Positions 23,796 to 33,916 of a stretch of 34,750 nucleotides of DNA are shown here, one piece after another. A program made the translations under genes and the position numbers. Source of the DNA: Oerskovia merdavium (GTDB taxonomy: Bacteria; Actinomycetota; Actinomycetes; Actinomycetales; Cellulomonadaceae); the NCBI RefSeq assembly GCF_014836755.1, contig NZ_JACSQF010000008.1:1-34750 (forward strand), in the 5' to 3' direction. The notes beneath the pieces are model-generated. The model saw only the letters and a list, made by a program, of their open reading frames with translations, made no database searches and was not told where the DNA came from. The stretch's first letter is position 1. The number at the start of each line of letters is the position of its first letter.

Positions 23796-25382
23796 TCACC
23801 CCGCCGCGATATGGGCGGCCACGCGGCACGTCGTCAGGGCCGACAGCTCCTCGGCCACCGGCAGGCGCACCTGGCCGTCCGCGACCCGACCGACGCTCTC
23901 CCGCAGCCTGCGCCGGGCACGCGCGGCCCGCCGTCGGGCACCCAGCGCGCCCGCGAGGCGCGAGACGAGCGCCACGACCAGCCCGACCACCACCCCGCCC
24001 ACGACCATGAGCGTGGGCCACGGGAACCCGCGCCACGTCGGGGTCTCGGGCGCGGGCAGCTGGAGGTACGCGAGGACCGCGAGCACACCGAGCCACACGA
24101 GGCCCGCCGCCAGCACTCCCAGGACGACCCACTGGACGAAGCTCACGACCCCCCACCAGACGGGGCGTCGCGTGGCCTCGAGCTCGGTGCCGGCCACGGC
24201 GAGGTCGAGCGCGTCGTCCAGACCGTCGGTGCTCGACGCGACCCGGGACCGCGCGGCGAGCACCCAGTCCTCGGGCGCCCCTGCCGTCATGGTGCCGACG
24301 TACTCGCGGACCGCGACGTGGGCCCGGGCCGCGAGCGTGGGCGAGGCGGGCGGGAGCGACGTGCGCGAGAGGTCCGGCCGGTCCGTGCCGCGCGTCAGCC
24401 CGAGGCGGCGCAGCGGGTCCACGCGCAGGCGCCCGATCCAGCGCGTGGGGGGCCAGCCGGTCGCGGCCCGGGCACGCCGGTTCGCCGACCCTCGGACGGC
24501 GTCCACGACCGTGGGCACCCCCGCCGCGGCCTCGAGCGCGTCGACGAGCCGCTCGCGCGCGGCCTTCTGCGAACGGTCGGGGACCTTGTCCCCGCACGCG
24601 TCCGCGATCCTCGTCGCGACCCCGCGCACGTCGGCGACCAGGCGGGCCACCGCCGCCTCGCGCCGCGCGGCGGCCTGGTCGAGGAGCGCGTCGAGCTCGT
24701 CGACCCCCTGCCCCGTGGTCGCCGAGACGCCCAGCACGCGGGCCGCAGCGAGCCCGTCCTCGGCCACGAGGCGACGCAGGTCCGCGAGGCACGCGGTCGC
24801 CTCCTCGGGGGTCAGCCGGTCGATCTGGTTGAGCACGACCACGACGACGTCCCCGTGCCCCGCGAGCGGACGCAGGTACCGCTCGTGCAGCGCGGCGTCG
24901 GCGTACTTCTGCGGGTCCACGACCCACACCAGGAGGTCGACCCGCTCGACGAGCCGTTCGGCGATCGCCCGGTGCTCGGTCTCGACCGAGTCGTGGTCCG
25001 GCAGGTCCAGCAGCACGAGGCCCTGGGTCGCCACCGCCGCACGGTCGGCCGCGTGGTGCCGGTCACCGACCTCGAGCCAGCTCAGGAGAGGGTCCGCACC
25101 CGGACCCCAGACGACCGCCATGGGGCGCGACGTCGTTGGACGCGTGATGCCCGGGCGCGCGAGCGGCTCCCGGGCGATCGCGTTGAACAACGACGACTTG
25201 CCCGAACCGGTCGAGCCCGCGAGCGCCACGACCGTGTGCTCTGCCGACAGCGCGCTGCGCGTGGCCGTGCGGTCCAGGACCGCGCGCGCGTCGTCGAGGA
25301 GCGCTGCGGGCAGCCGCCCCTCCCCCGCGGAGACCGCGGTCTCGAGCGCGGAGACCCGGTCGGCGAGGTCGAGGCGGGCCAT
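23796..25382 (-). CDS. Dynamin-like GTPase, B-type partner of pair 1 (B1)
   Basis: A 528-residue large GTPase with a membrane anchor. G1 is GSTGSGKSS (56-64), switch I is RPTT (81-84), the G3 position reads DLPDHDS (126-132) instead of DxPG, G4 is NQID (185-188), and SATTGQG (220-226) resembles G5. WVVDPQKYAD (153-162) is shared almost exactly with B2. After a charged helical region, two hydrophobic segments (412-440, 457-478) form a hairpin anchor, followed by an Arg-rich stretch. The ATG overlaps the stop of A1 in TGATG, so translation is coupled. The layout fits bacterial dynamin-like proteins that remodel membranes in pairs. GTPase and membrane roles are family-based inference. Confidence 0.85.
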   Translation of the reverse strand: MARLDLADRVSALETAVSAGEGRLPAALLDDARAVLDRTATRSALSAEHTVVALAGSTGSGKSSLFNAIAREPLARPGITRPTTSRPMAVVWGPGADPLLSWLEVGDRHHAADRAAVATQGLVLLDLPDHDSVETEHRAIAERLVERVDLLVWVVDPQKYADAALHERYLRPLAGHGDVVVVVLNQIDRLTPEEATACLADLRRLVAEDGLAAARVLGVSATTGQGVDELDALLDQAAARREAAVARLVADVRGVATRIADACGDKVPDRSQKAARERLVDALEAAAGVPTVVDAVRGSANRRARAATGWPPTRWIGRLRVDPLRRLGLTRGTDRPDLSRTSLPPASPTLAARAHVAVREYVGTMTAGAPEDWVLAARSRVASSTDGLDDALDLAVAGTELEATRRPVWWGVVSFVQWVVLGVLAAGLVWLGVLAVLAYLQLPAPETPTWRGFPWPTLMVVGGVVVGLVVALVSRLAGALGARRRAARARRRLRESVGRVADGQVRLPVAEELSALTTCRVAAHIAAG

Positions 25383-27595
25383 CAGCGCTCGTCCCCGGGC
25401 TCGTCGGTCGCGGTCGTGCTGGTCACGTCGGCGGCGGTCTCGTCGGCGGGGCGTGCCCCGAACAGGCGCCGCCAGAAGCCGGGACGCTCGGCGCCCGGCC
25501 GTTCCTCCGCGGGAGGCGTGCCGGGGGTGCGGGGGTCGTGCGCGTGCGCGCCGCGCAGGGCTCCCGCCTGCCCGACGACGGAGCCCGGGTCCGGCGCACC
25601 GGTCACCTCTGCGGCGCGGGCCTTCTGCTCGCGCCGCGCGGCCCGGCGCACCTCCTCGGCCGCGGCGCGCAGCGGGGCACCGGTCGCCTCCCCCGTGCCG
25701 AGCGCGTCGAGCTGGGACGTGAAACGTCGGGCCTCGCCGTCGAGCACGGCCCCGACGCGGGCCGAGAGGCGGTCCTGGGCCGTGCGCGTGAGCCGGCGCA
25801 CGGCGTCGTCGCCGAACACGGCCTCGAGCAGCTTCTGGGCGAGCACCGCGGTGCCGCCCGCGATACCGATCTCCGCCCCCGTGATGCCGCCCGTGGACGC
25901 GAAGACCAGGACCATGAGCGAGACGCCGAGCCCGTTGAGCCCGAACGACAGAGCACGCGCCGTGCCCCTCTTGGCCGCGGCCTGCTCGCTCACGAGCGCG
26001 AGGACGTCCGCCTGCCAGCCCCGGATCTCCTCGGCCACCCGGGTGCGCAGGGTGCCCGAGGCGCGGGACAGGTCGAGCCCGTCGAGCAGCGCGGCCCCCG
26101 ACGGATCGGCGCGCCACGCGCGGTAGCTGCGCTCGGCGGCCTCCTCGGCCGCGTCGAGCACGACCGACTCCAGCCCGTGCGTGATGGCCTCCTCGACCTC
26201 GGGGACCTTGCGCCCCTTGCCCCGGAAGAACCCGCTGATCGCGTCGCGGACCGAGCCCACCTTCTGCTCGACCGCCCGGAAGAACTCGCCCGTCCCGACG
26301 AAGTCCTGCCAGCGCGAGAGCACCTCGCCGCGCAGCATGGTGCCGTCGCTCGTCGCGGCCAGGACCGTCCGGCGCGCGTCCTCGTACGCGGCGTCGACCG
26401 CGGCACGCAGGTACCCGTCGGCCTCGTGCTGCACGTCGACCGCGCCCGCGAGCTCGGTCGCGCGCCGGACCAGGTCGTCGACCACACCGTCGCGCGTCGC
26501 GTCGATCACGGCCGAGCGCGCGCCCGCGTCCCCTCCGAGGGCCGTGAGCCAGCGGGAGATCTCCCCCACCGCGGTCTCGGGAAGGAGCCCGTCGACGAGG
26601 TGCGCCTCGGGCACCAGGAAGATCGGCGCGTGCCCCAGACCGTTCTCGGAGGCCAGGCGGTGCAGGTCGGCGCCCACGGCCTCGGCGCCGGGGTCGACGC
26701 GGTCGAGCACCAGGGCCACCTGAGCCCGGCGCCGGGCGGCCTCGTGCAGCAGGTCCCACGGCACCGCGTCGGCGTAGCGCGCGGCCGTCGTGACGAAGAG
26801 CCAGAGGTCCGCGGCCCCGAGGAGCTGTGCCGCGAGCTCCCTGTTCTCGACGACGACCGAGTCGACGTCGGGGGCGTCGAGGAGCGCAAGGCCCTGCGGG
26901 AGGGCCTCGGACGCCACCAGGCGTACCGACCGGTGGGCCGACGGGCTGTCCGTGTGGTCGACGGTCCCGGTCACGCGCGCTAGCCCGGGCAGGATGCGGT
27001 CGGTGCTGAACCAGCGCACGTCCAGGGGGTGGTGCACGAGCACGGGAGAGCGCGTCGTGGGCCGCAGCACGCCGGGCACCGTGACCTTCTCGCCCAGGAC
27101 CGAGTTCACGAGCGTGGACTTGCCCGCCCCCGTCGACCCGCCCACGACCACGAGCAACGGGGCGCTGCGGGCTCGCAGGCGCGGCAGCAGGTAGTCGTCG
27201 AGCTGGTCGACCGCGAGCGCGAGCGTCCGGCGGTCCTCCTCGACCCCGGGCGTCGTCAGGGGCAGGCGCTGGGCGGTGAGCTCGCCGCGCAGGACGTCGA
27301 GGGCCGCGACGAGCTCGTCCGTGCCCGACTGCGCGGCACGTTCGAGCGACCGCCCGACCACGGGGTCCTCCGCTGCGGCGTGCCGCCCGAGCAGGCTCTC
27401 CTCGACCGACGAGGGCCCGTTCGCCGAGGGCCCGTCTGCCGAGCTGCTGGGCGCCGGCGCGTCGAGGTCCTGCCCGGTGCCGGCGGGACCGCTGCCGGCG
27501 CCGGGCTCGCCCGGCCCGTCGTCGCTCGTGCGCGCGGCACCGCCGTCGGGGTCGCCGCCGACGGTCCGGCCGGCGTCGTCGCTCGGGATGGTCAT
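25382..27595 (-). CDS. Dynamin-like GTPase, A-type partner of pair 1 (A1)
   Basis: A 737-residue large GTPase. Residues 1-65 are disordered (Pro, Gly, Ser, Asp). G1 is GSTGAGKST (153-161), switch I RPTT (178-181), and the G3 position DAPDVDS (240-246). The G4 position reads LDRVD (297-301) in place of NKxD, so base recognition may be weak. ADLWLFVTTAARYADAVPW (262-280) is nearly identical in A2. The helical region 380-545 leads to a hydrophobic hairpin (about 549-590, with GGITGAEIGIAGG), then a basic coil and an acidic tail. The ATG at 27595 has GAGG upstream; the frame is open further but without homology. B1 starts on its last base. No promoter is visible in the 257 bp upstream, which mainly hold the ettA terminator. 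Confidence 0.85.
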   Translation of the reverse strand: MTIPSDDAGRTVGGDPDGGAARTSDDGPGEPGAGSGPAGTGQDLDAPAPSSSADGPSANGPSSVEESLLGRHAAAEDPVVGRSLERAAQSGTDELVAALDVLRGELTAQRLPLTTPGVEEDRRTLALAVDQLDDYLLPRLRARSAPLLVVVGGSTGAGKSTLVNSVLGEKVTVPGVLRPTTRSPVLVHHPLDVRWFSTDRILPGLARVTGTVDHTDSPSAHRSVRLVASEALPQGLALLDAPDVDSVVVENRELAAQLLGAADLWLFVTTAARYADAVPWDLLHEAARRRAQVALVLDRVDPGAEAVGADLHRLASENGLGHAPIFLVPEAHLVDGLLPETAVGEISRWLTALGGDAGARSAVIDATRDGVVDDLVRRATELAGAVDVQHEADGYLRAAVDAAYEDARRTVLAATSDGTMLRGEVLSRWQDFVGTGEFFRAVEQKVGSVRDAISGFFRGKGRKVPEVEEAITHGLESVVLDAAEEAAERSYRAWRADPSGAALLDGLDLSRASGTLRTRVAEEIRGWQADVLALVSEQAAAKRGTARALSFGLNGLGVSLMVLVFASTGGITGAEIGIAGGTAVLAQKLLEAVFGDDAVRRLTRTAQDRLSARVGAVLDGEARRFTSQLDALGTGEATGAPLRAAAEEVRRAARREQKARAAEVTGAPDPGSVVGQAGALRGAHAHDPRTPGTPPAEERPGAERPGFWRRLFGARPADETAADVTSTTATDEPGDER

Positions 27596-27752
27596 GGGCC
27601 TCAGTCTGCCGGACCCGGCAGCCGAGCGACCGGTGAGCGCGCCGCGCACGCCGGGTGACGTCGGGCCGGAGGCCGCGAGCGCGGGAGAGCTGGACCGGGC
27701 GAGTCGGGAGGGGAGACGGGGGCGACCGGCCCAGCCCGCGGGCGGCGCGCCA

Positions 27753-27798
27753 CGCACCAGAGGGCCCCGACGAGGATTCGTCGGGGCCCTCTGGTGCG
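27753..27798 (-). terminator. 21-bp perfect hairpin after ettA
   Basis: Bases 27753-27773 pair without mismatch with 27778-27798 around a GGAT tetraloop. It lies 54 bases beyond the ettA stop on the minus strand and should separate ettA from dynamin pair 1. The stretch 27596-27752 before A1 shows no further feature. Confidence 0.85.
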
Positions 27799-27852
27799 GA
27801 GCGTGTCGTTCGTCGCGGCTGCCCCGGTGGGGCGGCACGCGTCAGCGACGGA

Positions 27853-29535
27853 TCAGTCGCGCGTCAGCTTGCGGTACGTGACGCGGTGCGGGCGCGCTGC
27901 GTCCGCGCCGAGGCGGCCGATCTTGTTCTCCTCGTACGAGGCGAAGTTGCCCTCGAACCAGTACCAGTTCGCCGGGTCCTCCTCGGTGCCCTCGTACGCG
28001 AGGATGTGCGTCGCGACGCGGTCGAGGAACCACCGGTCGTGCGAGACCACGACGGCGCAGCCCGGGAACTCGAGCAGGGCGTTCTCGAGCGAGCCGAGGG
28101 TCTCGACGTCCAGGTCGTTGGTGGGCTCGTCGAGCAGCAGGAGGTTTCCACCCTGCTTGAGGGTCAGCGCGAGGTTCAGACGGTTGCGCTCACCGCCCGA
28201 GAGCACGCCGGCCGGCTTCTGCTGGTCCGGACCCTTGAAGCCGAACGCCGCGACGTAGGCGCGCGAGGGCATCTCGACGTTGCCGACCTTGATGAAGTCG
28301 AGCCCGTCGGAGACGACCTCGAACAGCGTCTTCTTGGGGTCGATCCCGCCGCGCGACTGGTCGACGTAGGAGATCGACACGGTCTCGCCGACCTTGAGGT
28401 CGCCGCCGTCGAGGGGCTCCAGGCCGACGATGGTCTTGAACAGCGTCGTCTTGCCGACACCGTTCGGACCGATCACGCCGACGATGCCGTTGCGGGGCAG
28501 CGTGAAGCTGAGCCCGTCGATGAGCTTGCGCCCGTCGAAGCCCTTCTGCAGGTTCGAGGCCTCGAGGACGACGGACCCCAGGCGCGGGCCCGGCGGGATC
28601 TGGATCTCCTCGAAGTCCAGCTTCCTGGTGCGGTCCGCCTCGGCAGCCATCTCCTCGTAGCGCGCCAGACGCGCCTTCGACTTGGTCTGGCGGCCCTTCG
28701 CGTTGGAGCGGACCCACTCGAGCTCGTCCTTCAGACGCTTCGCGAGCTTCTGGTCCTTCTTGCCCTGGATCGCCAGGCGCTCCTGCTTCTTCTCCAGGTA
28801 CGTGGAGTAGTTGCCCTCGTAGGGGTACAGGCGTCCGCGGTCGACCTCGCAGATCCACTCCGCGACGTGGTCGAGGAAGTAGCGGTCGTGGGTCACGGCG
28901 AGGATCGCGCCGGGGTAGGACGCGAGGTGCTGCTCGAGCCACAGGACCGACTCGGCGTCCAGGTGGTTGGTGGGCTCGTCGAGGAGCAGGAGGTCCGGCT
29001 TCTCGAGGAGGAGCTTGCACAGGGCGACGCGGCGACGCTCACCACCCGAGAGCACCGACACGTCGGCGTCCGGCGGCGGGCAGCGCAGCGCGTCCATGGC
29101 CTGCTCGAGCTGCGAGTCGAGGTCCCACGCGTCGGCGGCGTCGATGGCCTCCTGGAGGGTGCCCATCTCGGCGAGCAGCGCGTCGAAGTCTGCGTCCGGC
29201 TCGGCCATGAGCGCCGAGATCTCGTTGAAGCGGTCGAGCTTGCCCTTGATCTCGGCCACGCCCTCCTCGACGTTGCCGAGGACCGTCTTCTCCTCGTTCA
29301 GCGGCGGCTCCTGCAGCAGGATGCCGACCGAGTAGCCGGGCGAGAGCCGGGCGTCGCCGTTCGAGGGTTGCTCCAGCCCGGCCATGATCTTCAGGATCGT
29401 GGACTTACCGGCACCGTTGGGGCCGACCACACCGATCTTGGCACCGGGAAGGAAGTTCAGGGTGACGTCGTCGAGGATGACCTTGTCACCGTGCGCCTTG
29501 CGCGCCTTGTACATGGAGTAGATGAACTCAGCCAC
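27853..29535 (-). CDS. ettA: Energy-dependent translational throttle protein EttA (ABC-F ATPase)
   Basis: This 560-residue ABC-F protein binds the ribosomal E site and couples ATP level to the start of elongation. It has two ATPase domains: Walker A GPNGAGKST (38-46) and GPNGVGKTT (356-364), LSGGER twice (162-167 and near 444), and LDEPTNHLDA / LDEPTNDLDV. The EttA-specific arm lies at about 92-140 and the P-site linker at about 241-325, with the basic run KGRQTKSKARLARYEEM. The C-terminal YEGTEEDPANWYWFEGNFASY is typical of EttA. The start is GTG with no clear ribosome site or leaderless box. It lies 111 bp downstream of ssb, after a hairpin. Confidence 0.95.
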   Translation of the reverse strand: MAEFIYSMYKARKAHGDKVILDDVTLNFLPGAKIGVVGPNGAGKSTILKIMAGLEQPSNGDARLSPGYSVGILLQEPPLNEEKTVLGNVEEGVAEIKGKLDRFNEISALMAEPDADFDALLAEMGTLQEAIDAADAWDLDSQLEQAMDALRCPPPDADVSVLSGGERRRVALCKLLLEKPDLLLLDEPTNHLDAESVLWLEQHLASYPGAILAVTHDRYFLDHVAEWICEVDRGRLYPYEGNYSTYLEKKQERLAIQGKKDQKLAKRLKDELEWVRSNAKGRQTKSKARLARYEEMAAEADRTRKLDFEEIQIPPGPRLGSVVLEASNLQKGFDGRKLIDGLSFTLPRNGIVGVIGPNGVGKTTLFKTIVGLEPLDGGDLKVGETVSISYVDQSRGGIDPKKTLFEVVSDGLDFIKVGNVEMPSRAYVAAFGFKGPDQQKPAGVLSGGERNRLNLALTLKQGGNLLLLDEPTNDLDVETLGSLENALLEFPGCAVVVSHDRWFLDRVATHILAYEGTEEDPANWYWFEGNFASYEENKIGRLGADAARPHRVTYRKLTRD

Positions 29536-29574
29536 TGGCTCTGTTCCACCGTTCGATCGCTCGCGGGATGCTGT

Positions 29575-29614
29575 GCGCCCGCCCCGGACCCGGGGTGCCC
29601 CAGGTGGGGCGGGC
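29575..29614 (-). terminator. Hairpin after ssb
   Basis: CGCCCGCCCC (29575-29584) pairs with GGGGCGGGCG (29605-29614). The 20-base loop can fold further (GGGG with CCCC). It lies 32 bases beyond the ssb stop on the minus strand and just before the ettA start, so read-through could also make it part of the ettA leader. Confidence 0.6.
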
Positions 29615-29646
29615 GTCTTCGACCCCTCAGCCTACGCGGTCGAGGT

Positions 29647-30291
29647 TCAGCGCGTCGCCAGGAGCTCGCGGGCCACGGCCTCCTCGCCCGGGTCCTCGTC
29701 GGCACCGAGGCGCGCGGCACCCTCGTCCTCGTCGAGGTCGAGCGCGTCGTCGACCAGGCCGTGCTCGGCGTCGTCGTCCTCGGCGACCGGCTCCCCCAGC
29801 GGGCCCAGGTCCCACTCGGTGTCGCGGCCGGTGTCGGCGAGCAGTCCCGAGGCCTCCTCGTTCCCTGCCCTCTGCCCGGGGTCGACGGCCACCTGGCCGC
29901 TCGTGGCGTCGTCAAGCGTGGTGGGGCGGTGGACCGTGGGCGAGAAGCGGGCCTGCCCCCGCGTGAGGTCCGGTCCCAACGCGCTCGCCTCGATCACGAG
30001 GTTGGTGCGCGGCCCCTCGGGGCTGGTCCACTCGTCGACCGCGAGGCGTCCCGTGACCACGACCGCGTCGCCCTTGCGCAGCGAGGCCACGACGTTCTGG
30101 GCCATGCTCCGCCACGCCTTGACCGTGAACCAGATGGTCCGGCCGTCGACCCACTCGCCGCGCGTACGGTCGAGGTAGCGCGTGGTGCTCGCGATGCGGA
30201 AGCTCGTGAAGTCGTTGCCGGTCGGGGACGCGAACAGCCTGGGGCTCGTGCCCATGAAGCCTGCCAGCGTGACCGTGACGTCGTTGCCCAT
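29647..30291 (-). CDS. ssb: Single-stranded DNA-binding protein paralogue without the usual C-terminal tip
   Basis: A 214-residue protein with an OB fold in residues 1-110 (MGNDVTVTLAGFMG, FRIASTTRYLDR, WFTVKAWRSMAQNV, KGDAVVVTGRLAVDEW). It should bind single-stranded DNA as a tetramer. The tail is acidic (AEDDDAEHGL, DLDEDEGA) but ends ARELLATR and lacks the DDDIPF-type tip that recruits repair and replication proteins. It is therefore probably a secondary SSB, with the main one elsewhere next to rpsF/rpsR. GGAGG lies four bases before the ATG. It follows the B2 gene by 43 bp on the same strand and may be in its operon. Confidence 0.9.
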   Translation of the reverse strand: MGNDVTVTLAGFMGTSPRLFASPTGNDFTSFRIASTTRYLDRTRGEWVDGRTIWFTVKAWRSMAQNVVASLRKGDAVVVTGRLAVDEWTSPEGPRTNLVIEASALGPDLTRGQARFSPTVHRPTTLDDATSGQVAVDPGQRAGNEEASGLLADTGRDTEWDLGPLGEPVAEDDDAEHGLVDDALDLDEDEGAARLGADEDPGEEAVARELLATR

Positions 30292-30334
30292 CGTTCCTCC
30301 TGGGTGCGGGGCCGGCCTGGTGCCGACCGCGACC

Positions 30335-31921
30335 TCAGGCTGACGGTTCGCGGGCCGCCGTGTCCTGCGTCGAGGGGTCGTCTGTGGACGGGGCGACCAT
30401 GTCCTGGGGTGTGGGCAACCTCAACGCCCCGGTGAGCGGTGCCGCCCTGCCCGTGTCCCGCGCGGACTGCGCGAGCTCCCGCACCCTGCGGTGCTCGTCG
30501 AGCAGCTTCTGCGTGGGCTTGCCCATGGTCTCCTGGACCACGCGCTCGACCGCCCCGCGCCCCGACGCCAGGACCGTCGCCTCACGCCGACGGGCCAGGG
30601 TCCGGCGGATCTGGATCCCCGCGAGGAAGAAGCCGAGCGCCACCAGGACGGCCGCGCCCGCCACGATCGCGAAGGTCGCGACGATCGTCCGGTCGAGGTC
30701 CAGCACGCCCAGCGAGCTGAGGATCGCGAGCGCCCCCGTGACGACGGCCACGCCGATCGCCACGAGCGCCGTGGTGCGCGTCGCACGAGCCGACGAAGGG
30801 CCACGCGTGTCGAGCGAGACCTTGGACAGCGCCCGCTGGGTGTCCTCGACCAGGCGGTCTGCCGGGGCGACGGCCTCGTCGAGCGCCCGCTTCCAGCCCG
30901 GGCGCAAGGACTTCCCGGCCCGCGCGAGCCACCGGCTGCGCGAGAGCGCGACCGCGTCGGTCTGCGGCGGCGCGAACTCGGGTCGGCCGTAGCCGTTGCG
31001 CACGGCCGCGGCGACCTGGCCGGCCACCGCGGAGAGCCCGGTCGCCTCGCCGATCGCGACGACCTCCTCGTCGACCGCGGTGCTCATGGTCCACGGCACC
31101 TCGCCCGGGGTCTGCTCGAGCAGCAGGGCCCCCGCGCGGTCGAGCTCGCCCGCGACCCGGCTCGCGGCGACGCTGCGACGGGCCACGGCCTGCTGCAGCA
31201 GCTCGCGCACCTGGCCGAGCCCCTCTCCCGTGCGGGCCGAGACCATGGTCACGTACACCCCGGACAGGCCGTCCTCCTCGAGGAGGCGACCCATGTCCGC
31301 GACGAGGTTGCCGCGCTGCGTGGTCGGGACCGTGTCGATCTGGTTGAGCGCCACGACCATCGACGCCTCGAGCCCGACCGACTTCTGCAGGTAGCCCGAG
31401 TGCAGCGCGTCGTCCGCGTACTTCTGGGGGTCCACGACCCACACGAGCAGGTCGACGAGCGGCAGGACGCGGTCGACGACCGCCTGGTGCGCGGGCTCGA
31501 TCGAGTCGTGGTCCGGCAGGTCGAGCAGGACCAGCCCGTCGAGGCCCTCCTCGGCGTCCCCGTCGAGCTCGCTGCCCCGCGTGATGCGCCGCTCCGGGTC
31601 GACCTCGAGCCAGTCCAGGAGCGCCGTGGCCTGGTCGCTCCACGAGCACGCCGTGATGCGGGCCGTCGTGGGTCGCTTGGCGCCCACGTCGGCGAAGTTC
31701 AGGCGCGAGATGCGGTTGAACAGGCTCGACTTGCCCGAGCCCGTGCCGCCCGCGAGCGCCACGACCGTGTGGTCGACGCCCAGGGCAAGCCGCTCGCGCA
31801 CCCCGCCGATCGCGGTCCGGATCCGGTCCGCGACCTCCGGGTCGAGCCGGTCCCCCGCGAGATCGAGGGCCCTGCCGAGGTCGTCCGCACGGGACCTGAG
31901 CTGAGAGTCGTGGGACGTCAT
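30335..31921 (-). CDS. Dynamin-like GTPase, B-type partner of pair 2 (B2)
   Basis: A 528-residue GTPase, the same length as B1. G1 is GGTGSGKSS (58-66), switch I RPTT (83-86), G3 position DLPDHDS (134-140), G4 NQID (193-196), and G5-like SARTGEG (228-234). WVVDPQKYADDALH (161-174) matches B1. Two hydrophobic segments (383-404 and 412-437) form a membrane hairpin, then an Arg-rich run and a helical tail. Its ATG overlaps the A2 stop in ATGA (four bases), so translation is coupled. It probably acts with A2 at the membrane. The function is inferred from gene layout and family. Confidence 0.85.
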   Translation of the reverse strand: MTSHDSQLRSRADDLGRALDLAGDRLDPEVADRIRTAIGGVRERLALGVDHTVVALAGGTGSGKSSLFNRISRLNFADVGAKRPTTARITACSWSDQATALLDWLEVDPERRITRGSELDGDAEEGLDGLVLLDLPDHDSIEPAHQAVVDRVLPLVDLLVWVVDPQKYADDALHSGYLQKSVGLEASMVVALNQIDTVPTTQRGNLVADMGRLLEEDGLSGVYVTMVSARTGEGLGQVRELLQQAVARRSVAASRVAGELDRAGALLLEQTPGEVPWTMSTAVDEEVVAIGEATGLSAVAGQVAAAVRNGYGRPEFAPPQTDAVALSRSRWLARAGKSLRPGWKRALDEAVAPADRLVEDTQRALSKVSLDTRGPSSARATRTTALVAIGVAVVTGALAILSSLGVLDLDRTIVATFAIVAGAAVLVALGFFLAGIQIRRTLARRREATVLASGRGAVERVVQETMGKPTQKLLDEHRRVRELAQSARDTGRAAPLTGALRLPTPQDMVAPSTDDPSTQDTAAREPSA

Positions 31922-33624
31922 GAGAGCCTCCTGAGCTCAGCGAGGCGCAGGCGCAGCCCGACGGCGGCATCCGGCGCGAGGGCGGGGATGTCGAGGCGTT
32001 CCAGCAGGTCGACGGGTTCGCGGGCCACCATCACGGCGGCACGGTCGGCGAGGTCCGAGGCCAGGGTCTGCGCGGAGGCGAGGCCCGGGTCGCCGAGCAG
32101 GGACTGCACGAGCCGCGTGGCGTCGTCGACCCCCGCGGCGGACGTGAGGAGCAGCGCGACGAGCCCCGTGGGCCCGAGCGCCTTGACCGCGGCCTCGGCC
32201 CGGCGGTTCTCGGCGCTGTCCTGCGGGGTGACGCCCGGCTCGTCGATGCCGCGCAGGGCCTCGACCGCGCGCTCGGCGACCGAGACCCACTCGTGGACCT
32301 GGTCCTTGGCGGCCTTCGCGCGTGCCGCCTCACGGGCCGGGTCGCCGTGCTCGGGCGCGAACGCGGGGCCCCCGGGGGGAGCGTCCGGGCCGGTGAGAGC
32401 TGCGCGCAACGCGTCGTCGGCGCTCGAGCCCGCCGCGACGAGCGTGCGCGTCGCGGCGGCACGGACCTCGTCGAGGAGCGGTTCGAGCGCGGCCTCGCGT
32501 GCGCGCCCTCTGCGCTTGGTCGAGCGCGCCAGCCCGTGGCGCACCTTGAGGCGGTCGATCTTCTCGGCGCTCGCGAGCTGGGCCCAGCGCGAGGCGACCG
32601 AGCCCTCTGCGACGACGCCCGAGGCGACGGACGCGCGGGCCGTGGCCTCGGCGTCGGGCAGGGCCTTCTCGATCGTGGCGCGCAGCACCTCGGCGGCCTC
32701 GACCTGCTGCTGGACCGCGTCCGCGATGCCCGTGACCCACGCCGGGAGCGCGGCGAGCGAGCCCTTGAGCGTGCGCACGATCACGGCGCGAGACCGGTCC
32801 GGACCCGCGAGCATGGTCAGCCACCGGGCGATGGGGGTCACGGTCGCGCGGTCGAGCATGCCCTCGTGCGGCCCGACGTCGGGGATCACGAAGAGCGGCA
32901 CACCCTCCATGCCGTGCTCGCGCAGGCGGGCCAGGAGGTCGCCGCGGATGGTCGTGAGGTTGTGCTGCGGGACACGGTTGAGGACCATCGCGACGCTCGC
33001 GCCACGTTCCATGGCCTGACCGAGCGCGACCCAGGGCAGGGCGTCGCCGTAGCGCGCCGCCGTGGTCACGAAGAGCCACAGGTCCGCGGCCTCGAGGAGC
33101 TGGGCGGCGGTCGAGCGGTTCTCGGCGAGGAGCGAGTCGAGGTCCGGCGCGTCCAGGAGCGCGGTGCCGCGCGGGACGCCGTCGTGCTCGACGACGCGTG
33201 ACATCGCGGTCGTGGGGCTGTGGACCAGGACGTCCACGTCGAGCGGGTTGTAGGCGAAGACCGGCTCGCGGGTCGTGGGGCGCAGCACGCCCGCCTGCGA
33301 CACCTCCTCGCCCAGCAGCGAGTTGTAGAGCGTCGACTTGCCCGCGCCCGTCGACCCCGCGATCACCACGACCGCCGGGGAGGACAGCTCCTTGAGCCGC
33401 GGCAGCAGGTGCTCGTCGAGCTGGTTGAGCAGACGCCGGCGGGCGGCCTCTGCCTCCTCGACCCCGTCGAGGACCAGCGGGAGCTCGACCTCGGCCACGT
33501 CGCGGCGCAGGTCACGGCCCACGTCGAAGACCGTCGTCCCGATCTCCTCAGGGGTGTTGCCGGGCGTCCTGCCCGAGGCGGGGGTGGCCCGCGGGGCACG
33601 GTCGGCAGCATGTCGGGTCGTCAC
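31918..33624 (-). CDS. Dynamin-like GTPase, A-type partner of pair 2 (A2)
   Basis: A 568-residue GTPase related to A1 but 169 residues shorter. G1 is GSTGAGKST (90-98), switch I RPTT (115-118), and the G3 position DAPDLDS (158-164). The G4 position reads NRVP (216-219), which lacks the base-binding Asp. ADLWLFVTTAARYGDALPW (180-198) is nearly the same as in A1. After a helical region, only one weak hydrophobic stretch (484-499, GPTGLVALLLTSAAGV) is seen, so membrane contact may depend on B2. I chose GTG 33624, which has GAAGAT six bases before it. An upstream in-frame ATG at 33774 would add 50 Arg/Pro/Ala-rich residues and lacks a ribosome site. The stop overlaps the B2 start by four bases. 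Confidence 0.82.
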   Translation of the reverse strand: MTTRHAADRAPRATPASGRTPGNTPEEIGTTVFDVGRDLRRDVAEVELPLVLDGVEEAEAARRRLLNQLDEHLLPRLKELSSPAVVVIAGSTGAGKSTLYNSLLGEEVSQAGVLRPTTREPVFAYNPLDVDVLVHSPTTAMSRVVEHDGVPRGTALLDAPDLDSLLAENRSTAAQLLEAADLWLFVTTAARYGDALPWVALGQAMERGASVAMVLNRVPQHNLTTIRGDLLARLREHGMEGVPLFVIPDVGPHEGMLDRATVTPIARWLTMLAGPDRSRAVIVRTLKGSLAALPAWVTGIADAVQQQVEAAEVLRATIEKALPDAEATARASVASGVVAEGSVASRWAQLASAEKIDRLKVRHGLARSTKRRGRAREAALEPLLDEVRAAATRTLVAAGSSADDALRAALTGPDAPPGGPAFAPEHGDPAREAARAKAAKDQVHEWVSVAERAVEALRGIDEPGVTPQDSAENRRAEAAVKALGPTGLVALLLTSAAGVDDATRLVQSLLGDPGLASAQTLASDLADRAAVMVAREPVDLLERLDIPALAPDAAVGLRLRLAELRRLS

Positions 33625-33802: not shown

Positions 33803-33875
<73 letters not shown>

Positions 33876-33916
33876 CCACCGCGCGTCGTCGCGACGGCGC
33901 CTCGCCGTGTCTCTGA

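Follow-up and report, generated by a model that had tools for sequence, protein, structure and literature searches.

Two pairs of putative dynamin-like GTPases around a second ssb gene and ettA in Oerskovia merdavium

Why would one short chromosomal region of an actinobacterium hold two pairs of large GTPase genes, one on either side of ssb and ettA? This question is raised by a stretch of 34,750 bp from Oerskovia merdavium (contig NZ_JACSQF010000008.1, positions 1 to 34,750; hereafter, the window). Four GTPase genes lie there on one strand as two A-B pairs, A1-B1 and A2-B2, around ssb and ettA, as an earlier note on this DNA had described with coordinates that agree with ours. The explanation that we favor, with a probability of roughly 60%, is that A1B1 and A2B2 are ancient paralogous modules, both of the DynA/DynB type known from actinobacteria, in which B would be the anchored, guanine-specific protein and A its partner, and which would serve membrane work at septa or in repair.

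Two coupled pairs and their G domains

The six genes are transcribed from the minus strand in the order A2, B2, ssb, ettA, A1, B1, with gaps of 43 bases before ssb, 111 before ettA, and 257 before A1. In each pair the stop codon of A overlaps the start codon of B, as TGATG in pair 1 and as ATGA in pair 2, which is the coupling that the earlier note had reported. The motifs to which it drew attention, ADLWLFVTTAARY and WVVDPQKYAD, are likewise real and strongly conserved among relatives. Its remark that B1 and B2 are equally long holds for this genome (528 amino acids each) but is no rule, with relatives of B1 ranging from 522 to 616 amino acids. A search of the whole 4.49-Mb host genome with B1 returned only the four GTPases of the locus (E up to 1e-4), and the Pfam Dynamin_N model matched three further frames, on contigs C2, C22, and C16.

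In sequence comparisons, A1 and A2 shared 44% identity across 340 columns (E = 7e-71), and B1 and B2 shared 47% across 253 columns (E = 7e-51); A and B proteins matched each other in the G domain, too (E = 3e-18 and 4e-11). Profile alignments spanned 523 columns for A1/A2 and 486 columns for B1/B2 but just 203 to 236 columns for A/B, corresponding to the G domain. A1, B1, and B2 exceeded the Dynamin_N cut-off and hence carry a dynamin-type G domain, and A2 scored 26.1 bits alone, against a cut-off of 27, and 30 bits with its neighbors in frame. A dynamin reading is likely for A and B of both pairs. The A-B coupling is borne out as well, and so is the proposal, made from the first inspection of the DNA, of two heteromer-like modules.

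In the dynamin superfamily, the G3 and G4 motifs usually read DxPG and [NT]xxD, respectively. The P-loop is retained in both the A and the B family. The G4 motif is present in all 73 aligned B rows as opposed to 4 of the 72 A rows, some distant rows being clipped by the envelope of the hidden Markov model (HMM). Type labels were assigned by the nearest of four HMMs built for this analysis; where another family has one pair only, that pair comes out as type 1.

The two families also differ in their hydrophobic segments, which were called by hydropathy alone. The C-terminal half of B contained two segments in 60 of the 73 rows, three in 6, one in 2, and none in 5; four of these last five are truncated rows, and one, L181, is not (the prefixes f, G, and L denote families, genomes, and loci of the comparison set). 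A hydrophobic segment was found in 43 of 47 A1-type proteins versus 4 of 25 A2-type proteins. A2-type proteins appear to have largely lost this segment of A, so that module 2 probably depends on B2 for anchoring, and module 1 would insert through both A1 and B1.

From these features we infer a mechanism along the following lines. B would bear the guanine-specific G domain and be anchored in the plasma membrane via its two C-terminal segments. Its partner A, which would be co-translated with B and is devoid of a normal G4, would join B through the shared G-domain face and might act in a regulatory or activating capacity. GTP-driven assembly could then scaffold or seal the membrane, either at division septa, comparable to the stabilization of the Z-ring by DynAB, or at damaged sites. 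The modules would be two specialized versions rather than copies, with labor divided between them, as the weaker hydrophobic segment in A2 would indicate.

Conservation and history of the two pairs

The surroundings of the pairs were compared in 80 named loci, many of which are close relatives and not independent cases; 64 include ettA together with 4.5 kb or more of the sequence that follows. A1 and B1 follow ettA in the same order and on the same strand in 56 of these 64. Among the exceptions, five lack A1 and B1, L048 has a displaced pair that is truncated at the locus boundary, L111 carries the pair upstream and inverted, and L059 has B1 without a scored A1. The A and B frames, with starts picked by script, overlap in 50 of 53 type-1 pairs and in 51 of 73 type-2 pairs.

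All four GTPase genes are under purifying selection. Against six congeners, dN/dS was 0.17 to 0.30 for A1, 0.13 to 0.19 for B1, 0.15 to 0.19 for A2 (over 537 of its 568 residues), and 0.08 to 0.09 for B2. The highly conserved ettA gave 0.01 to 0.04, and ssb, at 0.42 to 0.72, was far above its neighbors. The recurring gene order and the constraint on the four GTPase genes show a conserved system and go beyond what chance would give. B2 is 93% identical to its counterpart in G003, a genome of the same genus. Two records carry names at odds with their content. L044, titled Sphaerisporangium cinnabarinum, has a B2 that is 77% identical to that of O. merdavium and a Cellulosimicrobium-like gene order, and it is likely mislabelled or contaminated. 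L098, titled Cellulosimicrobium cellulans DE0111, has a Cellulomonas-like B2 of 53% identity, as opposed to 77 to 78% in three other C. cellulans records, and is possibly misnamed.

Such persistent clustering, along with conserved motif faces that the two A types have in common, as do the two B types, might also be expected of one four-component machine, in which all four proteins would come together as mixed heteromers. The genomes of the exceptional loci speak otherwise. Seven of them were searched: G471, G474, and G475 gave two B-type matches, and G469, G470, G472, and G473 (two of which are metagenome-assembled genomes by title) gave one, that of A2B2, which argues that A2B2 can work alone. 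Moreover, G038, G054, G048, and G471 have their second pair at another genomic site, and regions of families f6 and f11 have an A1B1-type pair without a nearby ssb. We consider a single four-component machine unlikely.

We next turn to how widespread the pairs are. In an even draw of the phylum, the B profile matched 40 of 197 genomes, and, the O. merdavium genome itself aside, the other 39 hold one B-type gene each (that of G149 is split across two contigs). Among genomes of the same order, 188 of 248 gave a match, many with two pairs' worth. Forty regions from 37 genomes were fetched for analysis of synteny, and 16 of them contained an ssb match. A single pair followed by ssb was found in seven other families of the order (f2, f5, f7, f8, f15, f17, and f18) and in two genomes of f21, a Streptomyces-like family (L165 and L166). 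A2B2 occupies an A-B-ssb(-ettA) locus common to several other families of the order and to Streptomyces-like genomes, and synteny points to A2B2 as the pair that keeps the ancestral place. In Oerskovia, Cellulomonas, and their kin, A1B1 follows ettA, and the pairs of other families with which it groups lie elsewhere in the chromosome.

Phylogenies were built with 17 of the 80 named loci, picked for spread: a quick tree of 71 pairs, supported by the Shimodaira-Hasegawa-like approximate likelihood ratio test alone, in the concatenation of which L183 and L078_P1 have no partner row, and a careful tree of 45 of those pairs, concatenated. The careful tree contains an A1B1 clade that includes the pairs of f3, f6, f11, and f13 (support, 100/100) and a separate clade of A2B2-type pairs (100/100). 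With the exception of G425, the f3, f6, f11, and f13 pairs have neither ssb nor ettA in the fetched stretch. In the quick tree, type 2 joins the ssb-linked single pairs with a support of 99; the careful tree does not hold this group together (49/93 at its root fork) but separates it from both the phylum-wide pairs and the A1B1 clade (94/100). In a tree of A proteins only, type 2 has a long stem and branches outside a set of 40 rows of type 1. The trees differ in where they attach the long A2B2 branch and in the single pairs that they place closest to it.

Adjacency and the shared order and strand invite another history, in which one pair was recently duplicated in place, in tandem across ssb-ettA, and the earlier note had proposed a tree of the pairs as the check on such a sister relationship. 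The pairs did not come out as sisters. Forcing the cellulomonad A1B1 and type 2 into one clade cost 36.5 log units, with a P value of 0.045 in the approximately unbiased (AU) test, a moderate rejection given that the constrained group was named after seeing a tree. Because of this result and the separate clades in the careful tree, we reject recent tandem duplication as very improbable, and the modest identity of the copies (44 to 47%) is also at odds with it. Judged by their sequences, the two pairs are old paralogues and not local sister duplicates.

One locus may have a mixed history. In L163 (G425:C1:2932000-2950000), from family f13, A1B1 lies downstream of ettA and nests inside the cellulomonad A1B1 clade, and A2B2 falls among relatives from f13/f3. 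Possibly, genes were transferred horizontally to an identical position, perhaps by recombination at ettA.

The ssb gene and the layout of the locus

The host genome contains two genes for single-stranded DNA-binding protein (SSB). The copy outside the locus ends in DEPPF and has neighbors that read as ribosomal-protein genes. The PF tip is absent from the ssb of the locus and from all 79 ssb neighbors in the named loci and present in the ssb of 3 of the 16 far regions (L156, L160, and L163). Absence of the SSB tail is common, not universal. In Streptomyces, SCO2683 is presumably SsbB, with a role in chromosome segregation during sporulation. No paper about the ssb neighbor in Streptomyces came up in literature searches for SCO2683-2685 and vnz_12100.

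That a second SSB gene is repeatedly linked to the pairs suggests a possible, testable connection of DNA with membrane work at the septum. At its boldest, the conserved twin module would be coupled to a dedicated SSB paralogue, and two non-interchangeable A/B heteromers, each composed of a guanine-specific, membrane-anchored protein and a nucleotide-degenerate partner, would link septal membrane closure to the clearing or protection of DNA caught in the closing septum, without SsgB. We regard this extended scheme as speculative and improbable.

Features of the locus are listed below. The reading frame of A2, the start of which is uncertain, remains open upstream to 33774. A scan for promoters and terminators was uninformative, with no promoter-like site and one terminator-like site on the plus strand against 1.3 expected. 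A tRNA-Arg gene (anticodon TCT) lies at 33803-33878, just upstream of A2 on the opposite strand.

Features of the GTPase locus, with positions in the window
Feature	Coordinates	Strand	Product and motifs	Hydrophobic segments	Basis
A2	31918..33624	-	GTPase with G domain, from the pair on the ssb side, 568 aa with an uncertain GTG start; P-loop AGSTGAGKST; G3 DAPD; G4 degenerate (NRVP, Asp lost)	0 above the hydropathy cut	motif, Pfam, hydropathy
B2	30335..31921	-	Partner GTPase, 528 aa; G4 NQID	from ~386 and ~413	
ssb	29647..30291	-	Second SSB paralogue, 214 aa, without acidic PF tail; fast-evolving		
ettA	27853..29535	-	ATP-binding cassette (ABC)-F-type protein, 560 aa; highly conserved neighbor		EttA name from the sequence-only first reading
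A1	25382..27595	-	GTPase of the second pair, 737 aa from ATG; G3 DAPD; G4 DRVD (Asn/Thr lost, Asp kept)	from ~548	
B1	23796..25382	-	Partner GTPase, 528 aa; G4 NQID	from ~419 and ~458	

Comparison with known bacterial dynamins

Kinship with mycobacterial IniA/IniC, which the earlier note had suggested, does not extend beyond the G domain. Two genomes of f22, which we take to be mycobacterial, contain adjacent Dynamin_N frames of 625 to 647 and 498 to 499 amino acids, probably IniA/IniC. This pair scored at most 19 bits against the four family HMMs, hhalign aligned its G domain only (probability up to 93), and the B profile gave no match in the five f22 genomes listed. Unlike Oerskovia A and B, the f22 pair has DxPG at G3, and its longer partner has TKxD. 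In the Mycobacterium-like loci L201 and L202, [NT]KxD is present in the longer GTPase and absent from the shorter one. Paired bacterial dynamins may have lost G4 in one of the two partners more than once.

For the assembly of A with B, the model is the Campylobacter pair Cj-DLP1/DLP2, which was absent among the Protein Data Bank (PDB) matches listed. The available part of its description reports paired genes, a 2:2 heteromer that tethers liposomes, and a need for both P-loops in GTP turnover, and states that bacterial dynamin-like genes are mostly paired (PMC6104087). Escherichia coli LeoABC and Bacillus subtilis DynA, in the partial accounts at hand, are multi-gene or fused bacterial dynamin sets; their arrangement differs from that of the Oerskovia pairs, and they are likened here by description, not residue by residue. 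A double dynamin-like set appeared in no title among the matches listed by open-literature searches on bacterial dynamins (15 of 203 listed), DynA/DynB, the SSB neighborhood, and Cellulomonas/Oerskovia/Cellulosimicrobium (15 of 269 listed, all of them without the term "dynamin-like").

The closest parallel is probably Streptomyces DynA/DynB, which reportedly localize to septa and stabilize the Z-ring. Family f21 was taken as Streptomyces in part because each of the four genomes tested contained 3 to 7 SsgA-family matches. The distance from the f21 pair to the best of these matches was 1.39, 1.39, 1.46, and 1.61 Mb. In S. venezuelae, dynB (vnz_12105) and dynA (vnz_12110) are adjacent and ssgB is vnz_05545, according to the part of the source available (PMC6428758), which places dynB about 1312 genes from ssgB, assuming that locus tags rise in increments of five. 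The pair comprises the sole neighboring Dynamin_N frames above the cut-off in G080 and G237. Hence, the f21 pair is probably dynA-dynB, an assignment made by distance from the SsgA match and by elimination, and not by comparison with a named DynA or DynB sequence.

Several further observations weigh against the DynA/DynB-type reading. Elimination is clean in G080 and G237 alone, because approximately 3.5 kb separate the A-like frame of G217 from B, and three Dynamin_N genes form a second cluster in G178. The NCBIfam dynamin models match weakly (E = 0.016 to 0.018). No bacterial dynamin-like protein was found among the best 60 of 222 and the best 60 of 91 PDB profile matches, which were other GTPases and ABC ATPases, or among the listed matches of single-sequence PDB searches; the matches of the A profile also include immunity-related GTPases, at the P-loop (E = 0.007). 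At G3, where a glycine would be usual, DxPD stands in 72 of the 73 rows of B and in 69 of the 72 rows of A, and no row has DxPG. At the cut used, 24 of the 40 fetched regions had no ssb match (5 of the A1B1 clade and 19 others), and the AU test permits A2B2 together with the whole A1B1-type clade (P = 0.32). Finally, there was no SsgA-family match in the O. merdavium genome, so the link between DynB and SsgB cannot operate there.

The cluster in the Streptomyces-like genome G178 (L203, G178:C1:6509500-6519500) consists of three strong Dynamin_N proteins and is separate from the pair; its likeness to the Oerskovia A/B family is restricted to the G domain, with DxPG at G3.

A non-dynamin function would accommodate some of these findings. 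The proteins could be membrane-anchored TRAFAC GTPases that act as switches in envelope stress or signaling, perhaps tied to the SSB paralogue and septal DNA, as the restriction of detected homology with known dynamins to the G domain, the DxPD at G3, the degenerate G4 of A, and the frequent linkage to ssb would allow. Adjacent pairs of large GTPases with C-terminal hydrophobic segments nonetheless match the bacterial dynamin-like plan, and the Streptomyces-like counterpart is probably DynAB. We hold such switches to be possible, if doubtful.

The DynA/DynB-type reading, in turn, is consistent with what is reported of DynB, which has two transmembrane segments, binds divisome proteins including SepX, and partners DynA, and whose co-occurrence with SepX extends to unicellular actinobacteria, according to the part of the source available (PMC8748795). 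Oerskovia B has two hydrophobic segments by hydropathy and an adjacent A gene. The f21 pair matches the Oerskovia A/B family, adjoins ssb, and is near ettA in two fetched genomes. The kinship with DynA/DynB put forward in the earlier note is probable, and identity with DynAB itself is what we infer. Unlike O. merdavium, which has two B-type genes, the f21 genomes have one each. If the reading is correct, division GTPases of the DynAB type, studied in sporulating hyphae, are conserved in a doubled form in a genome without a detectable SsgA-family protein, and two types of heteromers with different membrane parts could be compared in one cell.

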